Shown here piece by piece: positions 3,370 to 11,746 of a stretch of 11,746 bases of DNA. The DNA lies in assembly GCA_030616465.1 (NCBI GenBank), contig JAUWXH010000016.1, positions 1 through 11,746 of the forward strand, read 5' to 3'. The stretch is from Planctomycetota bacterium (GTDB taxonomy: Bacteria > Planctomycetota > Phycisphaerae > UBA1845 > Fen-1342). Within the stretch, counting starts at the first letter, position 1, and each line of letters begins with the position of its first letter. Position numbers and translations under genes: made by a program. The notes below the pieces were generated by a model. It saw only the letters and a program-made list of their open reading frames with translations. It made no database searches and had not been told where the DNA came from.

Positions 3370-3522
3370 TGCTCGGTAGAAAAGGCCGCGCCGCATGTCA
3401 TTCCGAGGAGCGCAGCGACGAGGAATCTAGCCGCAAATGCGGAATTCGTCGAAACTCCCGGCCAGATCCCTCCTCCCTATGGTCGTCGGGATGACAGTGA
3501 ATTCGCCCTTTTCTACAAAGCA
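3370..3522. mobile_element. Non-autonomous MITE-like palindromic element, 153 bp
   Basis: The two ends are imperfect inverted repeats of roughly 65 bp. The left begins TGCTCGGTAGAAAAGG and the reverse complement of the right begins TGCTTTGTAGAAAAGG. After an equal 10-base spacer both continue with TGTCATYCCGA, then after an equal 14-base spacer with AGGRATCT and RGCCG. Identical 9-bp direct repeats abut both outer ends, as expected of a target-site duplication. There is no transposase gene, so movement would need an enzyme acting in trans; a 9-bp duplication is seen with IS4/Tn5-, IS1- and IS903-like transposases. Translations of the left arm give the HSEERSDEESS-type peptide that I recall recurring as spurious protein in many genomes, suggesting a widely scattered repeat type. 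Insertion just after xerD appears harmless to flanking genes. Confidence 0.8.
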
Positions 3523-5376: not shown

Positions 5377-6942
5377 ATGACGCTCAATCCCCTCCTCTGG
5401 CTTCACCTGCGACTGGGCAGCAACCGGCGTAACATCGTGGTTGTCCCGGCCGCTTTCGCGGTGCTCGTCATCGGCTTCGCCTCGTTCAGCTACTACATGG
5501 TCGAGCCCGCCGATTACGGCGCGGTGGCCTCCGTTTGGCTCGCCATCCTCTCCGCCGCACAAGCTGCATTTCTACTGGTGGTCGGGCCGTCGGCAATTCG
5601 CCGTGCCGTCTTGACCGATTTCCAAACCGGCATGATCGAGTCCCACCGCCTCTCGCCCATGAGCAGCTTCAAGATCATTGCCGGCTACCTGACCGGTCCG
5701 CCCACGCAGGCCGCCATTCTGTACGCCACCAGTCTCGTGCTCGGCACCTATTTCGTCGGGCAATACGCCAGGTCGCTCAACCTGGCCGGAATGCTCAGCG
5801 TGCCCGTCGGCGGATGGTACTTCCTGCAAGTGTCCCTGCTGTTCGTGGCCTTCATGGTTGCCGCGCTCGTGCTGCTCGGGGCGCTGGCTACGGCCGGCAA
5901 GACCAGTTTCATCGCCGTCGCGGTGGTCATCGGCATCTTCGGCGGCTGGGCGGCGGTCAGCTTCGTCCCGGGACTGGCACTGCTGACGGGGATTCTCAGC
6001 GGCGGCGTCCTGCTGGAGTTCATTCAGAGCGGCCGGTTTACCGGCGATCCGGCGGTCATTGTCCTGGCGCTCATCGTCCAGTTCGCACTGGGGGCGACGT
6101 TCATCCGGGCGGCCTGTCGCAAGATCCGTGCGCCCGAAAAGTCACTCTTCGGTATCCCCCTCAGCCTGGTGCTGCTGGTCATTTGGGGTTTCACGCTGGT
6201 CGGTGGGTTCGCCTGTGTGCCGCAAAACCAATGGCTGTTCTCCGAGTTTCGCGATCTGGGCTTCGCCCAGCTCATCTGCTCCACCGTCGCCTTCCTCGCC
6301 GTCGGCCTGTTCGTGCTCGTCGCTGCCGCATCCGAAGGCTTCTACCTCGATCGCGCCGCGGTGTTGGGCGCGGCGCGTTCGCCGCGCCGGCAGCGTGTTC
6401 TGACGCTTGTGCCCGTGCTGCTCGGGGTGCTCACGCTGCTGGCCATGTCGTTGATGTGCAACTGGATGATGCCGGATCAGAAAGCGGCGGTGCTCGGAGC
6501 GTTCCGCCGTCCGGCGATCGTCGTGGCCATGCTCGCGGCGCTGGTGTTGAGTTGTTGGCTGGACTACTGCCTGGTGTATGCCGCCGTCGCGAGGGGAAAA
6601 CGAATCCTGTTCGTCCTGATCGCGTCGGTCGCTGTCCTTAAGATTCTGCCGCTCGCCGCGGACGCGCTGATCGAATCGATCGTATGGGAAGCGGCGCATC
6701 AAAGGTGGGGTGGCCAGGGCTACCTCACCGGCCTCTCGCCGATCGGGACGTTGATCCTCTGCCGCAGCGGCGGCACACCCATGTGGCTGGGGTTGTTCGT
6801 GCAGGCCCTATTGGCGGGAATCGCGACTGGGCTGGCCCGGCGTGCCCGGCGCGGCCTCGCAGCCGGGACGACAGACGCGTGCAACTCTGGCACCGCGGAA
6901 GCCGGAAAGGAAGTCAACGGACATGTCGTCGGCAGGCGCTAA
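5377..6942 (+). CDS. ABC-2-like transporter permease, polytopic membrane protein
   Basis: A 521-aa very hydrophobic protein with about 11-13 predicted membrane helices spread through residues 20-490, making it about twice the size of a single six-helix ABC-2 domain; it may be a fused double permease half. An early cytoplasmic stretch, RRAVLTDFQTGMIESHRLSP (about residues 71-90), matches the ABC-2 pattern in which a helix-breaking segment before the second or third helix contacts the ATPase; the wording 'E..RLSP(M)S' is typical of ABC-2 exporters. It begins three bases after the ATPase stop and its last 20 bases overlap the mqnE start. The C-terminal tail beyond the last helix is Arg- and Ala-rich (about 490-521) and of low complexity. 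Assignment as the partner of the ATPase rests on position and topology; substrate unknown. Confidence 0.85.
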   Translation: MTLNPLLWLHLRLGSNRRNIVVVPAAFAVLVIGFASFSYYMVEPADYGAVASVWLAILSAAQAAFLLVVGPSAIRRAVLTDFQTGMIESHRLSPMSSFKIIAGYLTGPPTQAAILYATSLVLGTYFVGQYARSLNLAGMLSVPVGGWYFLQVSLLFVAFMVAALVLLGALATAGKTSFIAVAVVIGIFGGWAAVSFVPGLALLTGILSGGVLLEFIQSGRFTGDPAVIVLALIVQFALGATFIRAACRKIRAPEKSLFGIPLSLVLLVIWGFTLVGGFACVPQNQWLFSEFRDLGFAQLICSTVAFLAVGLFVLVAAASEGFYLDRAAVLGAARSPRRQRVLTLVPVLLGVLTLLAMSLMCNWMMPDQKAAVLGAFRRPAIVVAMLAALVLSCWLDYCLVYAAVARGKRILFVLIASVAVLKILPLAADALIESIVWEAAHQRWGGQGYLTGLSPIGTLILCRSGGTPMWLGLFVQALLAGIATGLARRARRGLAAGTTDACNSGTAEAGKEVNGHVVGRR

Positions 6943-8200
6943 AATGCTCGACCGCGCGCTCGAGCCGATTCGCGCGAAGGTCGTCGCCGGGCAGCGCCTC
7001 AGCCACGCCGACGGCCTGACTCTCTGCCGCACGCGCGACATCTTCACGCTGGGCGAGTTGGCCGACCTGGTCCGCCGCCGGCGACACGGCCGCAAGACCT
7101 ACTATAATATCAACCGCCACATCAACTACACCAACTACTGCGTGCTGCGCTGCAAATTCTGCGCCTTCTACCGCCCTTATCCCCGTGCGGGAGAGCCCGC
7201 CGAGGGTGGCTACGAACTGAGTATCGACCAGATCGTCGGCCTGGCGGCGGAAGCCTGCGAGCACGGCGCGACCGAGGTCCACATTGTCGGCGGGCTGCAC
7301 CCCAAGCTGCCGTTCAGCTACTACACCGATATGTGCCGGGCTATCAAGCAACGCTGCCCCAACCTGCACATCAAGGCCTTTACCGCAATCGAGATCGTGC
7401 ACTTCGCGCGCATTGCCAAGCCGCGGCTGAGCATCGCCGAGGTCTTGACCGCCCTGCGCGCGGCCGGGCTTGACAGCCTGCCGGGCGGCGGGGCCGAAAT
7501 CTTCGACCAACGCGTCCACCACGAAGCCTTCCAGAGCAAAGTCGGCGAAAAGCACTGGTTCGACGCGCACCGCAGCGCCCACGAGCTCGGCATCCCCACC
7601 AACGCCACCATGCTCTACGACCACGTCGAGAGCCCCGAGGACCGCATCACCCACTTGCTCAAGCTCCGCGAGCACCAGGACGCATCGCTGGCGCGAATTC
7701 AGAATTGCGAATGCAGAATACAGGATGAGCAGAAGGAAGCGCCGCACGCCAGCGATGCGCGCGACGGCGGTCTTCATTCGACATTCTGCATTCACCATTC
7801 TGCATTCCAGTGCTGCGTCCCGCTCCCGTTCATTCCCGAAGGCAGCGCGCTGGCTCACCTGCCCGGACCGACCGGCCTCGACGACCTGCGCACGCTCGCG
7901 GTCGCCCGGCTGATGCTCGACAACTTCCCGCACATCAAGGCCTTCTGGCCGATGCAGTCGCCGAAGCTCGCGCAAGTGGCGCTGAACTGGGGCGTGGACG
8001 ACTTCGACGGCACCGTGGTGTGGTACGACATCACCAAGCGCGCGGGCCGCGGCACCAACCGCCAGGAACTCACCGTCGATCAGATCTGCCGCCTGATCCG
8101 CGAAGCCGGCTTTGACCCGGTCGAACGCGACACGCTCTACCGCTCGGTGCGGCGTGACGCCACCGGCCGCCTTGCCGTCTCCGGCGGGGATCGCGACTGA
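6923..8200 (+). CDS. mqnE: Aminofutalosine synthase MqnE, with an in-frame repeat-derived insertion
   Basis: A 425-aa radical SAM enzyme of the futalosine route to menaquinone; MqnE joins 3-[(1-carboxyvinyl)oxy]benzoate with SAM to give 6-amino-6-deoxyfutalosine. The signature is clear: NINRHINYTNYC followed by CVLRCKFCAF, the CX3CX2C [4Fe-4S] ligands at C73, C77 and C80. GGLHPKLPFSYYTDM, KAFTAIEI, LPGGGAEIFD and TNATMLYDHVE are family blocks. Start choice: ATG 6923 has GGAAAGGAAG upstream and overlaps the permease by 20 bp; ATG 6944 is an alternative. The odd part is residues ~258-295, between LREHQDASLA and VPLPFIPEGS: family members have about 9 residues there, this one has about 44, and the extra DNA is a palindromic repeat (7695-7807) read in frame. 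Length without it is about 387, the usual size. No other menaquinone gene lies in the window. Activity with the insert is unproven. Confidence 0.93.
   Translation: MSSAGAKMLDRALEPIRAKVVAGQRLSHADGLTLCRTRDIFTLGELADLVRRRRHGRKTYYNINRHINYTNYCVLRCKFCAFYRPYPRAGEPAEGGYELSIDQIVGLAAEACEHGATEVHIVGGLHPKLPFSYYTDMCRAIKQRCPNLHIKAFTAIEIVHFARIAKPRLSIAEVLTALRAAGLDSLPGGGAEIFDQRVHHEAFQSKVGEKHWFDAHRSAHELGIPTNATMLYDHVESPEDRITHLLKLREHQDASLARIQNCECRIQDEQKEAPHASDARDGGLHSTFCIHHSAFQCCVPLPFIPEGSALAHLPGPTGLDDLRTLAVARLMLDNFPHIKAFWPMQSPKLAQVALNWGVDDFDGTVVWYDITKRAGRGTNRQELTVDQICRLIREAGFDPVERDTLYRSVRRDATGRLAVSGGDRD
7695..7807. repeat. Palindromic repeat element inside mqnE
   Basis: The outer arms (7695-7719 and 7783-7807) are 25-bp inverted repeats with four mismatches. 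The right arm contains ATTCTGCATTC twice, and its complement GAATGCAGAAT occurs in the left arm, so a long hairpin can form. Inner segments GAAGCGCCGC (7736-7745) and GGCGGTCTTC (7766-7775) partly pair too. It is visibly AT-richer than the flanking coding DNA. It is read in frame without a stop and adds RIQNCECRIQDEQ...FCIHHSAFQ to the protein, a type of peptide I recall as repeat translation in other genomes. No clear target-site duplication was found. Confidence 0.75.
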
Positions 8201-10076: not shown

Positions 10077-11642
10077 ATGGACAAAGTCACGCTTGACGGG
10101 AACTCGCTCTCGATTGAGCAGATCGTCGCCGTCGCTCGCCAAGGGGCGAGTGTTTCGGTCTCGGACGACGCCCGCACCAAAGTGCAGCGCTGCCGGGACT
10201 TCCTCGAAAAATGCGTGAAAGACGGCATCGCCATCTACGGCGTCACGACCGGGATCGGCGAATTCGCGCGCATCCGCATCTCGCCCGAGCAGAGTGCCGA
10301 GCTGAGCCGGCGGATCATCTACAGCCATTCGGCCGGCACCGGCGACCCGCAACCGCCGGACGTCGTCCGGGCTGCCATGCTGCTGCGGGCCAACGTGCTG
10401 GCCAAGGGCTACTCCGGCGTACGGCAGTGCCTGCTCAACACGGTCATCGACATGATCAACAAGGGCGTGGTGCCGTACGTTCAGGAGAAGGGCTCGCTGG
10501 GCGTCAGCGGCGACCTGTCCCCGATGTCACAGTTCGCCGAGGTCGCGCTCGGCGAGGGCCGGGCTTTCTACAAGGGCGAATTGATGTCCGGCGGCGAGGC
10601 GATGAAACGCGCCGGCGTCAAGCCCACCGACCTGACTTTCAAGGAAGGCCTCGGCCTGATCAACGGTTCACAGATGATGACCGGCGGCGCCGCCCTGCTG
10701 GTCTACGACGCCGAACGCTTGCTCAAGAACGCCGTCATTGCCGCCGCCATGTCGGCAGACGCTTTGCGGGCCGTGGCGCGCGCGTTCAACCCCCACGTGC
10801 ACCGCGTTCGCCCCTTCCGCGGTCAAAACGCGGTCGCCGCCAACCTGCTGCGCCTGTTTGCCGATAGCGAGATCATGGCCCACCGCACGGGCCGCGTGCA
10901 GGACGGCTACAGCATCCGCTGCACGCCCCAGGTCCTCGGGCCCTCGCTCGACACGCTCGAACACGTGCGGCAGATCGTCAATACCGAAGTCAACTCCGCC
11001 GCCGACAACCCGCTCTTCTTCGGCGACGAACAGGAATACTTCGCCGCCGGCAACTTCCACGGCCAGGGCATCGGCATGGTGGTCGATTTCCTATGTATCG
11101 CGTTGTCGGAGGTGGCAAACCTCTCCGAGCGACATACCAATCGGCTGCTCAACCCGGTCTTGTCCGGGCTGCCCGATTTCCTGGTCGAGGGCAAGGGGCT
11201 CAACAGCGGGCTGATGGTCGCCCAGTACACCGCCGCCGCTCTGGTGTCGGAGAACAAGGTGTTGTCGCACCCGGCGTCGGTGGATTCGATTAGCGTCTCG
11301 GCCGACCAGGAGGACCACGTCAGCATGGGGCCGATCGCGGTCCGCAAGTGCACGGAGATTCTCAAGAACGTGCGCACCGTGCTGGCGATCGAGATGATGT
11401 CGGCCGCCCAGGCGTTCGAGTTCCACGACGGTCGGCGGCCCGGGCGCGGCACGGGAGTCGCTTACGACCTGATCCGCACCAAGGTCCCGCGTCTGGTCGA
11501 TGACCGGGTGCTGTGGCCCGACATCGAGGAGATCCGCAAGCTGGTCGAGTCGAACGCGATCGTGGACGCGGTCGAAAAGGAGCTCGGCCCGCTGACCCTG
11601 GCCCGCGACCTGACCGACCTCCCCCGCCCAAACGTCTCGTAG
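10077..11642 (+). CDS. hutH: MIO-type ammonia-lyase, HutH-like (histidine/aromatic amino acid ammonia-lyase family)
   Basis: A 521-aa member of the family that eliminates ammonia from histidine (to urocanate), phenylalanine or tyrosine, or isomerises them. Seen: GVTTGIGEFA (catalytic Tyr54 before it), SH at 83-84 in YSHSAGTGD, the MIO region GSLGVSGDLSPM (140-150), N196 in LINGSQ, VQDGYSIRCTPQV (274-286), NFHGQ (326-330), SERHTNRLLNP and QEDHVSMGP (411-419). SH at the selectivity site matches HAL rather than PAL (FL) or TAL (HL), but NFHGQ is closer to lyase/aminomutase relatives. The MIO triad is Val143-Ser144-Gly145 rather than Ala-Ser-Gly, which is unusual. The start follows AAAGGA by six bases. 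Gene symbol given for family membership; the substrate is not settled. No other hut gene (hutU, hutI) is nearby, so a role in histidine breakdown is not supported by context. Confidence 0.9.
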   Translation: MDKVTLDGNSLSIEQIVAVARQGASVSVSDDARTKVQRCRDFLEKCVKDGIAIYGVTTGIGEFARIRISPEQSAELSRRIIYSHSAGTGDPQPPDVVRAAMLLRANVLAKGYSGVRQCLLNTVIDMINKGVVPYVQEKGSLGVSGDLSPMSQFAEVALGEGRAFYKGELMSGGEAMKRAGVKPTDLTFKEGLGLINGSQMMTGGAALLVYDAERLLKNAVIAAAMSADALRAVARAFNPHVHRVRPFRGQNAVAANLLRLFADSEIMAHRTGRVQDGYSIRCTPQVLGPSLDTLEHVRQIVNTEVNSAADNPLFFGDEQEYFAAGNFHGQGIGMVVDFLCIALSEVANLSERHTNRLLNPVLSGLPDFLVEGKGLNSGLMVAQYTAAALVSENKVLSHPASVDSISVSADQEDHVSMGPIAVRKCTEILKNVRTVLAIEMMSAAQAFEFHDGRRPGRGTGVAYDLIRTKVPRLVDDRVLWPDIEEIRKLVESNAIVDAVEKELGPLTLARDLTDLPRPNVS

Positions 11643-11669
11643 CGCCCGGTCTCCGTGCCGGACGTCTTC

Positions 11670-11722
11670 TGTGGCACCGGCTTCCAGCCGGTGGATTCAC
11701 AGGCAGGATGCCTGTGCCACAC
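11670..11722. repeat. Double-hairpin dispersed repeat downstream of the lyase gene
   Basis: The arms TGTGGCAC...CCGGTG (11670-11693) and CACAGGCA...GCCACA (11699-11722) are 24-bp imperfect inverted repeats. Each arm is itself a perfect 8-bp stem with a 3-base loop: CACCGGCT-TCC-AGCCGGTG and CACAGGCA-GGA-TGCCTGTG. The sequence type (GTGGCAC..GGC..TCC..GCC) is one I recall as a common intergenic repeat in planctomycete and verrucomicrobial genomes. It starts 28 bases after the stop and could block read-through, though no T tract follows. Confidence 0.7.
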
Positions 11723-11746
11723 AAATGTAGCGGCCGGGCTCCGTCC

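Follow-up and report, generated by a model that had tools for sequence, protein, structure and literature searches.

A palindromic insert with tandem-heptamer arms in the mqnE gene of a Phycisphaerae planctomycete

The mqnE locus and its insert

The window analysed here is a stretch of 11,746 nucleotides from a planctomycete of the class Phycisphaerae (contig JAUWXH010000016.1). It carries mqnE, the gene for the radical SAM enzyme aminofutalosine synthase (Table 1). The encoded protein scores 438.5 bits against the NCBIfam model TIGR03700, passing the cut-off of 434.55, and its frame runs without a stop across the whole of a palindrome that lies inside the gene, as the initial annotation had described. 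Cysteines C73, C77 and C80 are invariant among 32 aligned sequences. The source genome assembly is fragmentary (575 contigs totalling 2.77 Mb, 62.7% complete) and contains one mqnE match above the cut-off. No second intact mqnE was thus found, and the suggestion that the element may have disabled a duplicate is not supported; as the assembly is 63% complete, a further copy may lie in the missing part.

The linker from LREHQD to VPLPF spans 46 residues in this MqnE, compared with 14 in 62 of 110 loci and 9 in 18 of 110. The short linker first attributed to family members is real for these loci, and other relatives have other inserts at the same position. Relative to the 14-residue linker of the nearest insert-free relatives, this one is longer by 32 residues (96 nt), not by the ~38 extra codons originally estimated. 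The stretch is indeed AT-richer (54% GC in 7694-7801 vs 66% in the window) and contains internal repeat copies. The motif ATTCTGCATTC occurs in the window as three exact copies and one with a single mismatch, where shuffles averaged 0.10 copies with a maximum of 2.

The insert forms a predicted hairpin of 113 bp (7695-7807), the size initially given. Each inverted arm (7695-7728 and 7774-7807) measures 34 nt, and the two are 79% complementary. The arms consist of tandem heptamers in convergent order, with (GAATNNN)n in the 5' arm and (NNNATTC)n in the 3' arm. The self-match of the arms was 0.75 at lag 7, compared with 0.29 at lag 6 and 0.26 at lag 8. RNA folding of positions 7675-7822 gave -68.4 kcal/mol (z = -5.7), and none of 200 dinucleotide shuffles was equally stable; two runs on the linker by itself (138 nt) returned z-scores of -3.3 and -4.0. 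A simple repeat without a palindrome was considered and is ruled out by the inverted arms together with the RNA fold.

The hairpin loop also repeats a piece of the host flank in inverted form. In 4000 shuffled loops the longest flank match arising by chance was 12 nt, against the 13 nt found here. Among 19 tested elements of another genome (G016, described below), the longest inverted or direct flank copy was 9 nt, so flank copies are no general mark of the mechanism. By eye, the heptamers merge with native codons; the boundaries of the insert are therefore blurred and no target-site duplication could be fixed.

Table 1. Coordinates of mqnE and of the features of its insert, given as positions in the window.
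Feature	Position	Strand	Description or basis
mqnE, aminofutalosine synthase (radical SAM), 425 aa, insert included	6923-8200	+	TIGR03700 and solved structures 6xig/6xi9
Extra stretch vs 14-aa linker	7694-7801	+	~36 codons replacing ~4 in insert-free relatives; net +96 nt; encodes RIQNCECRIQDEQKEAPHASDARDGGLHSTFCIHHS
5' arm	7695-7729	+	Five heptamers GAATTCA GAATTGC GAATGCA GAATACA GGATGAG; inverted-repeat arm 7695-7728
Hairpin loop	7730-7773	+	Inverted-repeat search, RNA fold
13-nt exact inverted copy of host flank 7681-7693 (directly upstream of insert), within hairpin loop	7747-7759	+	Inverted-repeat search
3' arm	7776-7807	+	Inverted heptamers ATTCGAC ATTCTGC ATTCACC ATTCTGC ATTC, the last run into native codons A-F; inverted-repeat arm 7774-7807

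An exact period of 7 passes through all codon phases, so that its three frames are rotations of one heptapeptide and either all are open or none is. As 7 is not a multiple of 3, stop-free heptamer units can be carried in frame. Four of the six frames are open through the window insert. All distinct MqnE loops longer than 57 nt (16 of 16, among 105 distinct loci) were multiples of three and stop-free, and the same was true of 27 of 27 readable linkers in UvrA. Translation needs the frame to be kept and stops to be avoided, while skipping does not, so the pattern among the long loops fits translation. From these sequence patterns, we infer that the insert is translated and retained in the protein.

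An AlphaFold model of MqnE was built on an alignment (A1) of 32 sequences. These were drawn from 36, of which L056 was dropped for a stop codon and L066, L075 and L123 were left out; L060 was shortened. The model had a mean pLDDT of 81.2 and a pTM of 0.83. Residues 265-288, all with pLDDT below 50, lie between a helix (238-261) and a strand (295-302), which makes the insert a predicted disordered loop ahead of a barrel strand and agrees with the loop placement proposed earlier. The best solved match to the model was 6xig, MqnE of Pedobacter heparinus (TM 0.84 on target), and at the insert the sequence alignment with 6xi9 is interrupted (query 254 to 294). In radical-SAM-type barrels, the loops leading from helix to strand point away from the active site. 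Given this usual layout, the modelled position fits a tolerated insert.

The same loop in related MqnE proteins

Five of the 18 MqnE loops of at least 57 nt contained heptamer palindromes with differing units (L016, which is this window, L018, L023, L038 and L092). Four lineages besides this window thus carry heptamer palindromes of other sequence in the same loop, L018 being the weakest of the five. Other fillings were also observed. The L019 loop has a period of 8, not 7, the L017 loop has a CCCCAAT array with no matching arm, and many filled loops of relatives lack a strong hairpin.

The distribution of these states was traced on two MqnE trees, both of which contain many weak branches. On a tree of 105 rows, built with both variable loops left out, the heptamer label needs four changes and a loop longer than 57 nt needs nine; starred branches alone force two changes for the heptamer label. 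On a tree of 121 rows, the filled or empty state needs 13 changes (two forced by starred branches), against a mean of 25.7 for shuffled labels. This clustering indicates that the state is partly inherited.

A search for MqnE proteins scored 8000 candidates, of which 4913 reached E 1e-100 or better and 120 were listed. Among these 120 listed of 4913 homologues, the loop was at least 24 aa long in 79 and exactly 14 aa in 29. As anticipated in the initial annotation, the insert residues are not conserved in distant relatives: they were found in none of the 110 loci or 120 listed proteins except P0001. The four closest among the homologues listed (P0001 to P0004), known from their protein sequences alone, cluster with the window in a five-member group (SH-aLRT 99). 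In P0001, 94% identical to this MqnE, the insert is almost identical. P0002 (96% and 95% identity in two conserved parts) carries a different heptamer-type insert, RIKNSELRVANDE ... GTRNSELATRYSER. Orthologues without the insert also exist, with P0003 (92% and 93% identity in the two conserved parts) and P0004 (90% and 92%) each having an empty 14-aa linker.

Peptide motifs for the arms of GA(A/G)T heptamers, composed for GAAT/GAGT units after examples had been inspected, occurred in the loops at 9.90 and 10.80 per 1000 aa, against 0.66 and 0.42 in the rest of the proteins (~15x and ~26x). Both motifs were present in 9 of the 120 listed homologues, the first only in 10 and the second only in 11. 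Since only 9 of 120 have both, many long loops are of other make-up.

MqnE has a second variable loop, after FYR (window 7175-7210), which ranges from 7 to 65 aa among relatives and is placed after the iron-sulphur cysteines. None of the folded examples of at least 75 nt combined a strong fold with period 7; L064 folds well without period 7. Loop 1 of the L109 MqnE carries PPLVKGG, which is reminiscent of another translated palindromic repeat.

Heptamer elements elsewhere in the genomes

Within the source genome, the exact arm ATTCTGCATTC had no match outside the mqnE locus (three matches in 2.77 Mb, all at the locus). Further arrays with GAAT or GAGT cores were present at other loci, most of them missing a clear inverted partner within 220 nt. 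The expectation of other repeat copies in this genome was therefore borne out for heptamer arrays, with one palindrome in frame in UvrA, and not for the exact arm. The GAATNNNGAATNNNGAAT pattern (GAATNNN arrays) was found 11 times in forward and 11 times in reverse orientation, vs 1 and 2 for a reversed control. Across the source genome and 60 others of its family and order, this pattern was present in 51 of 61 genomes and absent from 10; in G002 its counts (0+3) lay below those of the reversed control (9+2).

Searching the better assembled relative G016 (99% complete) with its own MqnE element returned 75 matching pieces, and searching G008 with its own element gave no strong second copy and three further weak matches, the best of them at E 0.045. 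In the largest of the G016 contigs retrieved, 351 inverted repeats were detected over a contiguous 1.6 Mb at the settings used, 23 of them with an arm lag-7 match of at least 0.65. The same threshold at lags 4, 5, 6, 8, 9, 10 and 11 gave 0, 0, 4, 14, 3, 1 and 0. The cores of the 23 elements were mostly GAATNNN, GAGTNNN and GAAGTNN, with a few GTGA-type and GC-rich. Among the elements listed for G016, those of GAAT, GAGT and GAAGT type have the convergent order of the window element. Near-identical arms (of GAGTTCAGAGTAGCGAGTAGCGAGTTGAA type) occur in unrelated genes and between genes, and the hairpin loops vary from copy to copy. By eye, the arms recur and the interiors differ, and the fixed terminal repeats with a conserved interior that define a MITE were not seen.

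A G016 element was counted as genic only if both flanks were coding by a codon model trained on the long ORFs of the same genome. On this basis, 18 of the 23 lie outside supported ORFs and 5 inside, two of these in CarB, two in UvrA and one in an ORF with PorA-like and PorB-like halves. The 1.9-2.3 Mb region of contig C1, chosen partly for earlier matches and excluded from the 1.6-Mb count, held eight elements with a lag-7 match of at least 0.6, three of them in coding-flanked ORFs. Two of these ORFs encode MutS and MetH, and the third encodes 317 aa with no family match.

Palindromes with a period of 8 (units ACACGGAG and AAGGGATC) account for the lag-8 count, at 14 places in 1.6 Mb of the same contig, and one of them lies inside an ORF with a protein-kinase match (L403:2600-6319). 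Together with the MqnE loop of L019, these look like a sister class.

In the source genome, one in-frame palindrome (ASSELRVAGSELG ... FELATLNSQLAT, arm match 0.76) lies in UvrA and spans residues 462-500 of that ORF piece. It sits where the alignment to solved UvrA stops (residue 466), in the linker to a C-terminal extension common to relatives. The double-length UvrA of G016 (1896 aa) has two in-frame palindromes, the second at this same place, and the UvrA elements common to G000 and G016 may be inherited. Thirty loci were fetched for the UvrA linker set, of which 27 were readable (both flanks) and three had no right flank. The readable linkers ranged from 33 to 198 nt. Inverted arms scoring at least 12 were present in 5 of the 19 scored linkers of at least 75 nt, the source genome included. 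Arms of that score arose once in 1360 plain shuffles, and 17 of 1000 windows of 130 nt drawn at random from G016 had them.

Further in-frame copies were found in G016. CarB has two (residues 694-721 and 808-835), both in alignment gaps relative to E. coli CarB 1bxr (690/729 and 801/835). MutS has a palindrome of GC-rich units at residues 650-680, just before the P-loop stretch as placed by profile matches only, and MetH has one at 347-373, in a between-domain region where 8g3h is shorter. A single ORF (L278:14827-17211) combines a PorA-like half (22-401) and a PorB-like half (496-786), each matching solved chains, and the linker that joins the halves includes a heptamer palindrome at 400-432. 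GAGT-subfamily peptides resemble one another across unrelated proteins, reading ELRVASSELK ... LATLNSEL or LATRYSEL. Elements located before the first domain of amidohydrolases, a response regulator, glutamate dehydrogenase and a PQQ repeat protein were not counted as in-frame, as they may be mere upstream sequence.

The CarB of L289 has a long insert at residues ~421-525 with a different repeated peptide, SRDREGV / TRDREGV, which is apparently another translated repeat. In the window itself, an intergenic stretch (3398-3510) reads CATTCCGAGGAGCG ... GTCGTCGGGATGACAG, which we take to resemble a dispersed bacterial repeat. The end of the window (11650-11746) reads HRHPACESTGWKPVPQ on the minus strand, reminiscent of a common planctomycete repeat; a search of 11600-11746 yielded no inverted repeat.

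Interpretation and comparison with known repeats

Taken together, it is likely that the insert belongs to a class of short palindromes with convergent tandem-heptamer arms, and that it represents a tolerated, disordered addition of 32 residues with turnover at permissive sites. Members of this class would share the architecture (GAATNNN)n ... (NNNATTC)n, built from tandem heptamers in convergent order. In MqnE, the element would occupy the linker from a barrel helix to the next strand and be translated as 32 disordered residues. Its presence would be tolerated and probably close to neutral, with class members coming and going at the MqnE site, and at others, within short evolutionary times. 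The elements would arrive by copying from elsewhere, a route favoured by the near-identical arms at unrelated G016 loci. Loops differ between copies and no target duplication could be fixed, observations that lend no support to transposition with fixed ends.

The palindrome might instead have grown in place in a permissive linker through replication slippage of short units and template switching (foldback copying), a process that yields inverted arrays, with no element moving in. The 13-nt inverted copy of the host flank is the trace that foldback copying would leave, and growth in place would also account for an exact arm motif confined to the mqnE locus of the source genome, for the G008 element without a strong second copy in G008, and for loops that differ among copies. 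However, GAGTTCAGAGTAGCGAGTAGCGAGTTGAA-type arms recur nearly unchanged in unrelated G016 genes and intergenically, the GAAT core is common to heptamer units across much of the order, and an inverted flank copy that long was present in 1 of 20 elements tested. We consider this origin unlikely. Less probable still is that the hairpin persists because it acts in RNA or DNA (by attenuation, pausing or an effect on mRNA stability), with the peptide as a by-product. The very stable fold, and arms of differing sequence that still pair in different lineages, speak for such a role. Against it, the insert is missing from two close homologues whose compared conserved parts are 90-93% identical, and a strong hairpin is lacking in many of the relatives' filled loops.

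Two further explanations deny the insert a place in a working protein. Hairpins skipped in the manner of mitochondrial byp elements are free of any triplet rule in length and may contain stops. Absence of the stretch from the protein, whether spliced out or skipped by the ribosome, has as its sole point in favour a hairpin within a conserved gene, and is very improbable, since the frame is kept in every long loop examined, in MqnE and UvrA alike, and Rfam gave no match in the window at gathering scores; introns, splicing and ribosome skipping were rejected on these grounds. An assembly artefact or dead gene copy is the least credible of all. The assembly is incomplete and a single mqnE was found in it, which would suit such an origin, yet a 94%-identical database protein has nearly the same insert, the three cysteines are invariant, and comparable inserts occur in relatives from separate assemblies.

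Our data thus favour a tolerated, translated member of a heptamer-palindrome class, and suggest a recurrent gain and loss of small repeats in dispensable loops of essential proteins. A broader reading is plausible but tentative. Phycisphaerae may carry genome-wide, frame-indifferent coding palindromes that repeatedly fill and vacate permissive linkers (MqnE, UvrA and probably CarB, MutS and MetH), a natural and fast-changing source of disordered segments that would include part of the PorA-PorB linker. The empty and differently filled sister proteins, 90-96% identical across the conserved parts compared, are natural before-and-after pairs. These allow direct tests of how a selfish insertion affects an enzyme, of the rule that makes a site permissive and of the insertion mechanism. 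They also carry a warning that translated repeat DNA may underlie lineage-specific inserts in the proteins of planctomycetes.

A literature search, with most subscription papers outside its scope, found no earlier report of heptamer palindromes in planctomycete proteins. The closest system in coding behaviour is that of the RPEs of Rickettsia, palindromes of 105-146 bp that are intergenic or fused in frame within conserved protein genes; protein-coding palindromes are also described from Wolbachia in the work of Ogata and colleagues (PMC2229807). For one tested enzyme, the product of an RPE-bearing gmk, activity was kept and substrate affinity changed (PMC2229807). Like RPEs, the MqnE palindrome (113 bp with 34-nt arms, within a long-stem criterion of ~100-150 bp) lies in frame in a conserved gene and is absent from some orthologues (P0003 and P0004). 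Unlike RPEs, its arms are heptamer arrays and its loops are not conserved, the likeness being one of description. The host also differs, being a Phycisphaerae-type planctomycete with a GC-rich genome, in which sister lineages carry different units at the same site. The resemblance to RPEs noted in the initial annotation can stand as an analogy, with an in-frame palindrome in an mqnE that looks functional; that account was right about a hairpin of this kind and overlooked the heptamer arms and their recurrence, both at the site and in other housekeeping genes.

In construction, the nearest parallels come from Xanthomonas (GGGAATC) and Nostoc (GGGGA(T/C)T), both of which have convergent heptamer repeats (PMC4692102). 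Arrays of GGGAATC mostly have four units with partly variable positions and often form convergent inverted pairs (70 in Xcc, 75 in Xac). Between 89% and 93% of the arrays are intergenic and 7-11% intragenic, and they are discussed as G-quadruplex formers (PMC4692102). GGGAATC is a rotation of GAATCGG and thus fits GAATNNN. The window element shares with these repeats tandem 7-nt units of fixed core in two convergent inverted arrays. Unlike most of those in Xanthomonas it is intragenic, and it is an in-frame protein insertion, a feature that we did not find described for GGGAATC in the text consulted. The STRR repeats of cyanobacteria, usually of 7 bp, can form hairpins (PMC2670836) and, by the title of one paper, are present in heterocyst formers within the gene for RNase P RNA (PMC4748335). 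Their locations in the accounts consulted are intergenic or in that RNA gene, whereas the MqnE element lies in a protein linker. A heptamer, TAACTGA, is also reported from Beggiatoaceae (PMC4853749).

Other small repeats within genes are less similar. Nematomorph mitochondria have long inverted repeats in protein genes that are gained and lost (PMC6649704), but these are perfect repeats of mitochondrial genes, with heptamer arrays unmentioned in the part of that source available, while the MqnE element is made of such arrays. Bacterial MITEs such as ERIC/RU-1 and Correia are small repeats with open frames and in-frame gene fusions (PMC2229807). MITEs have fixed terminal repeats, whereas in the heptamer class only the arms recur, unit number varies and interiors differ. 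By analogy, the MqnE palindrome is best read as RPE-like in coding behaviour and as the heptamer-repeat kind of Xanthomonas and Nostoc in build. In the literature covered, protein-coding palindromes are mainly known from Rickettsiales, and heptamer repeats from intergenic regions of Xanthomonas and cyanobacteria; planctomycete housekeeping enzymes appear to combine both.
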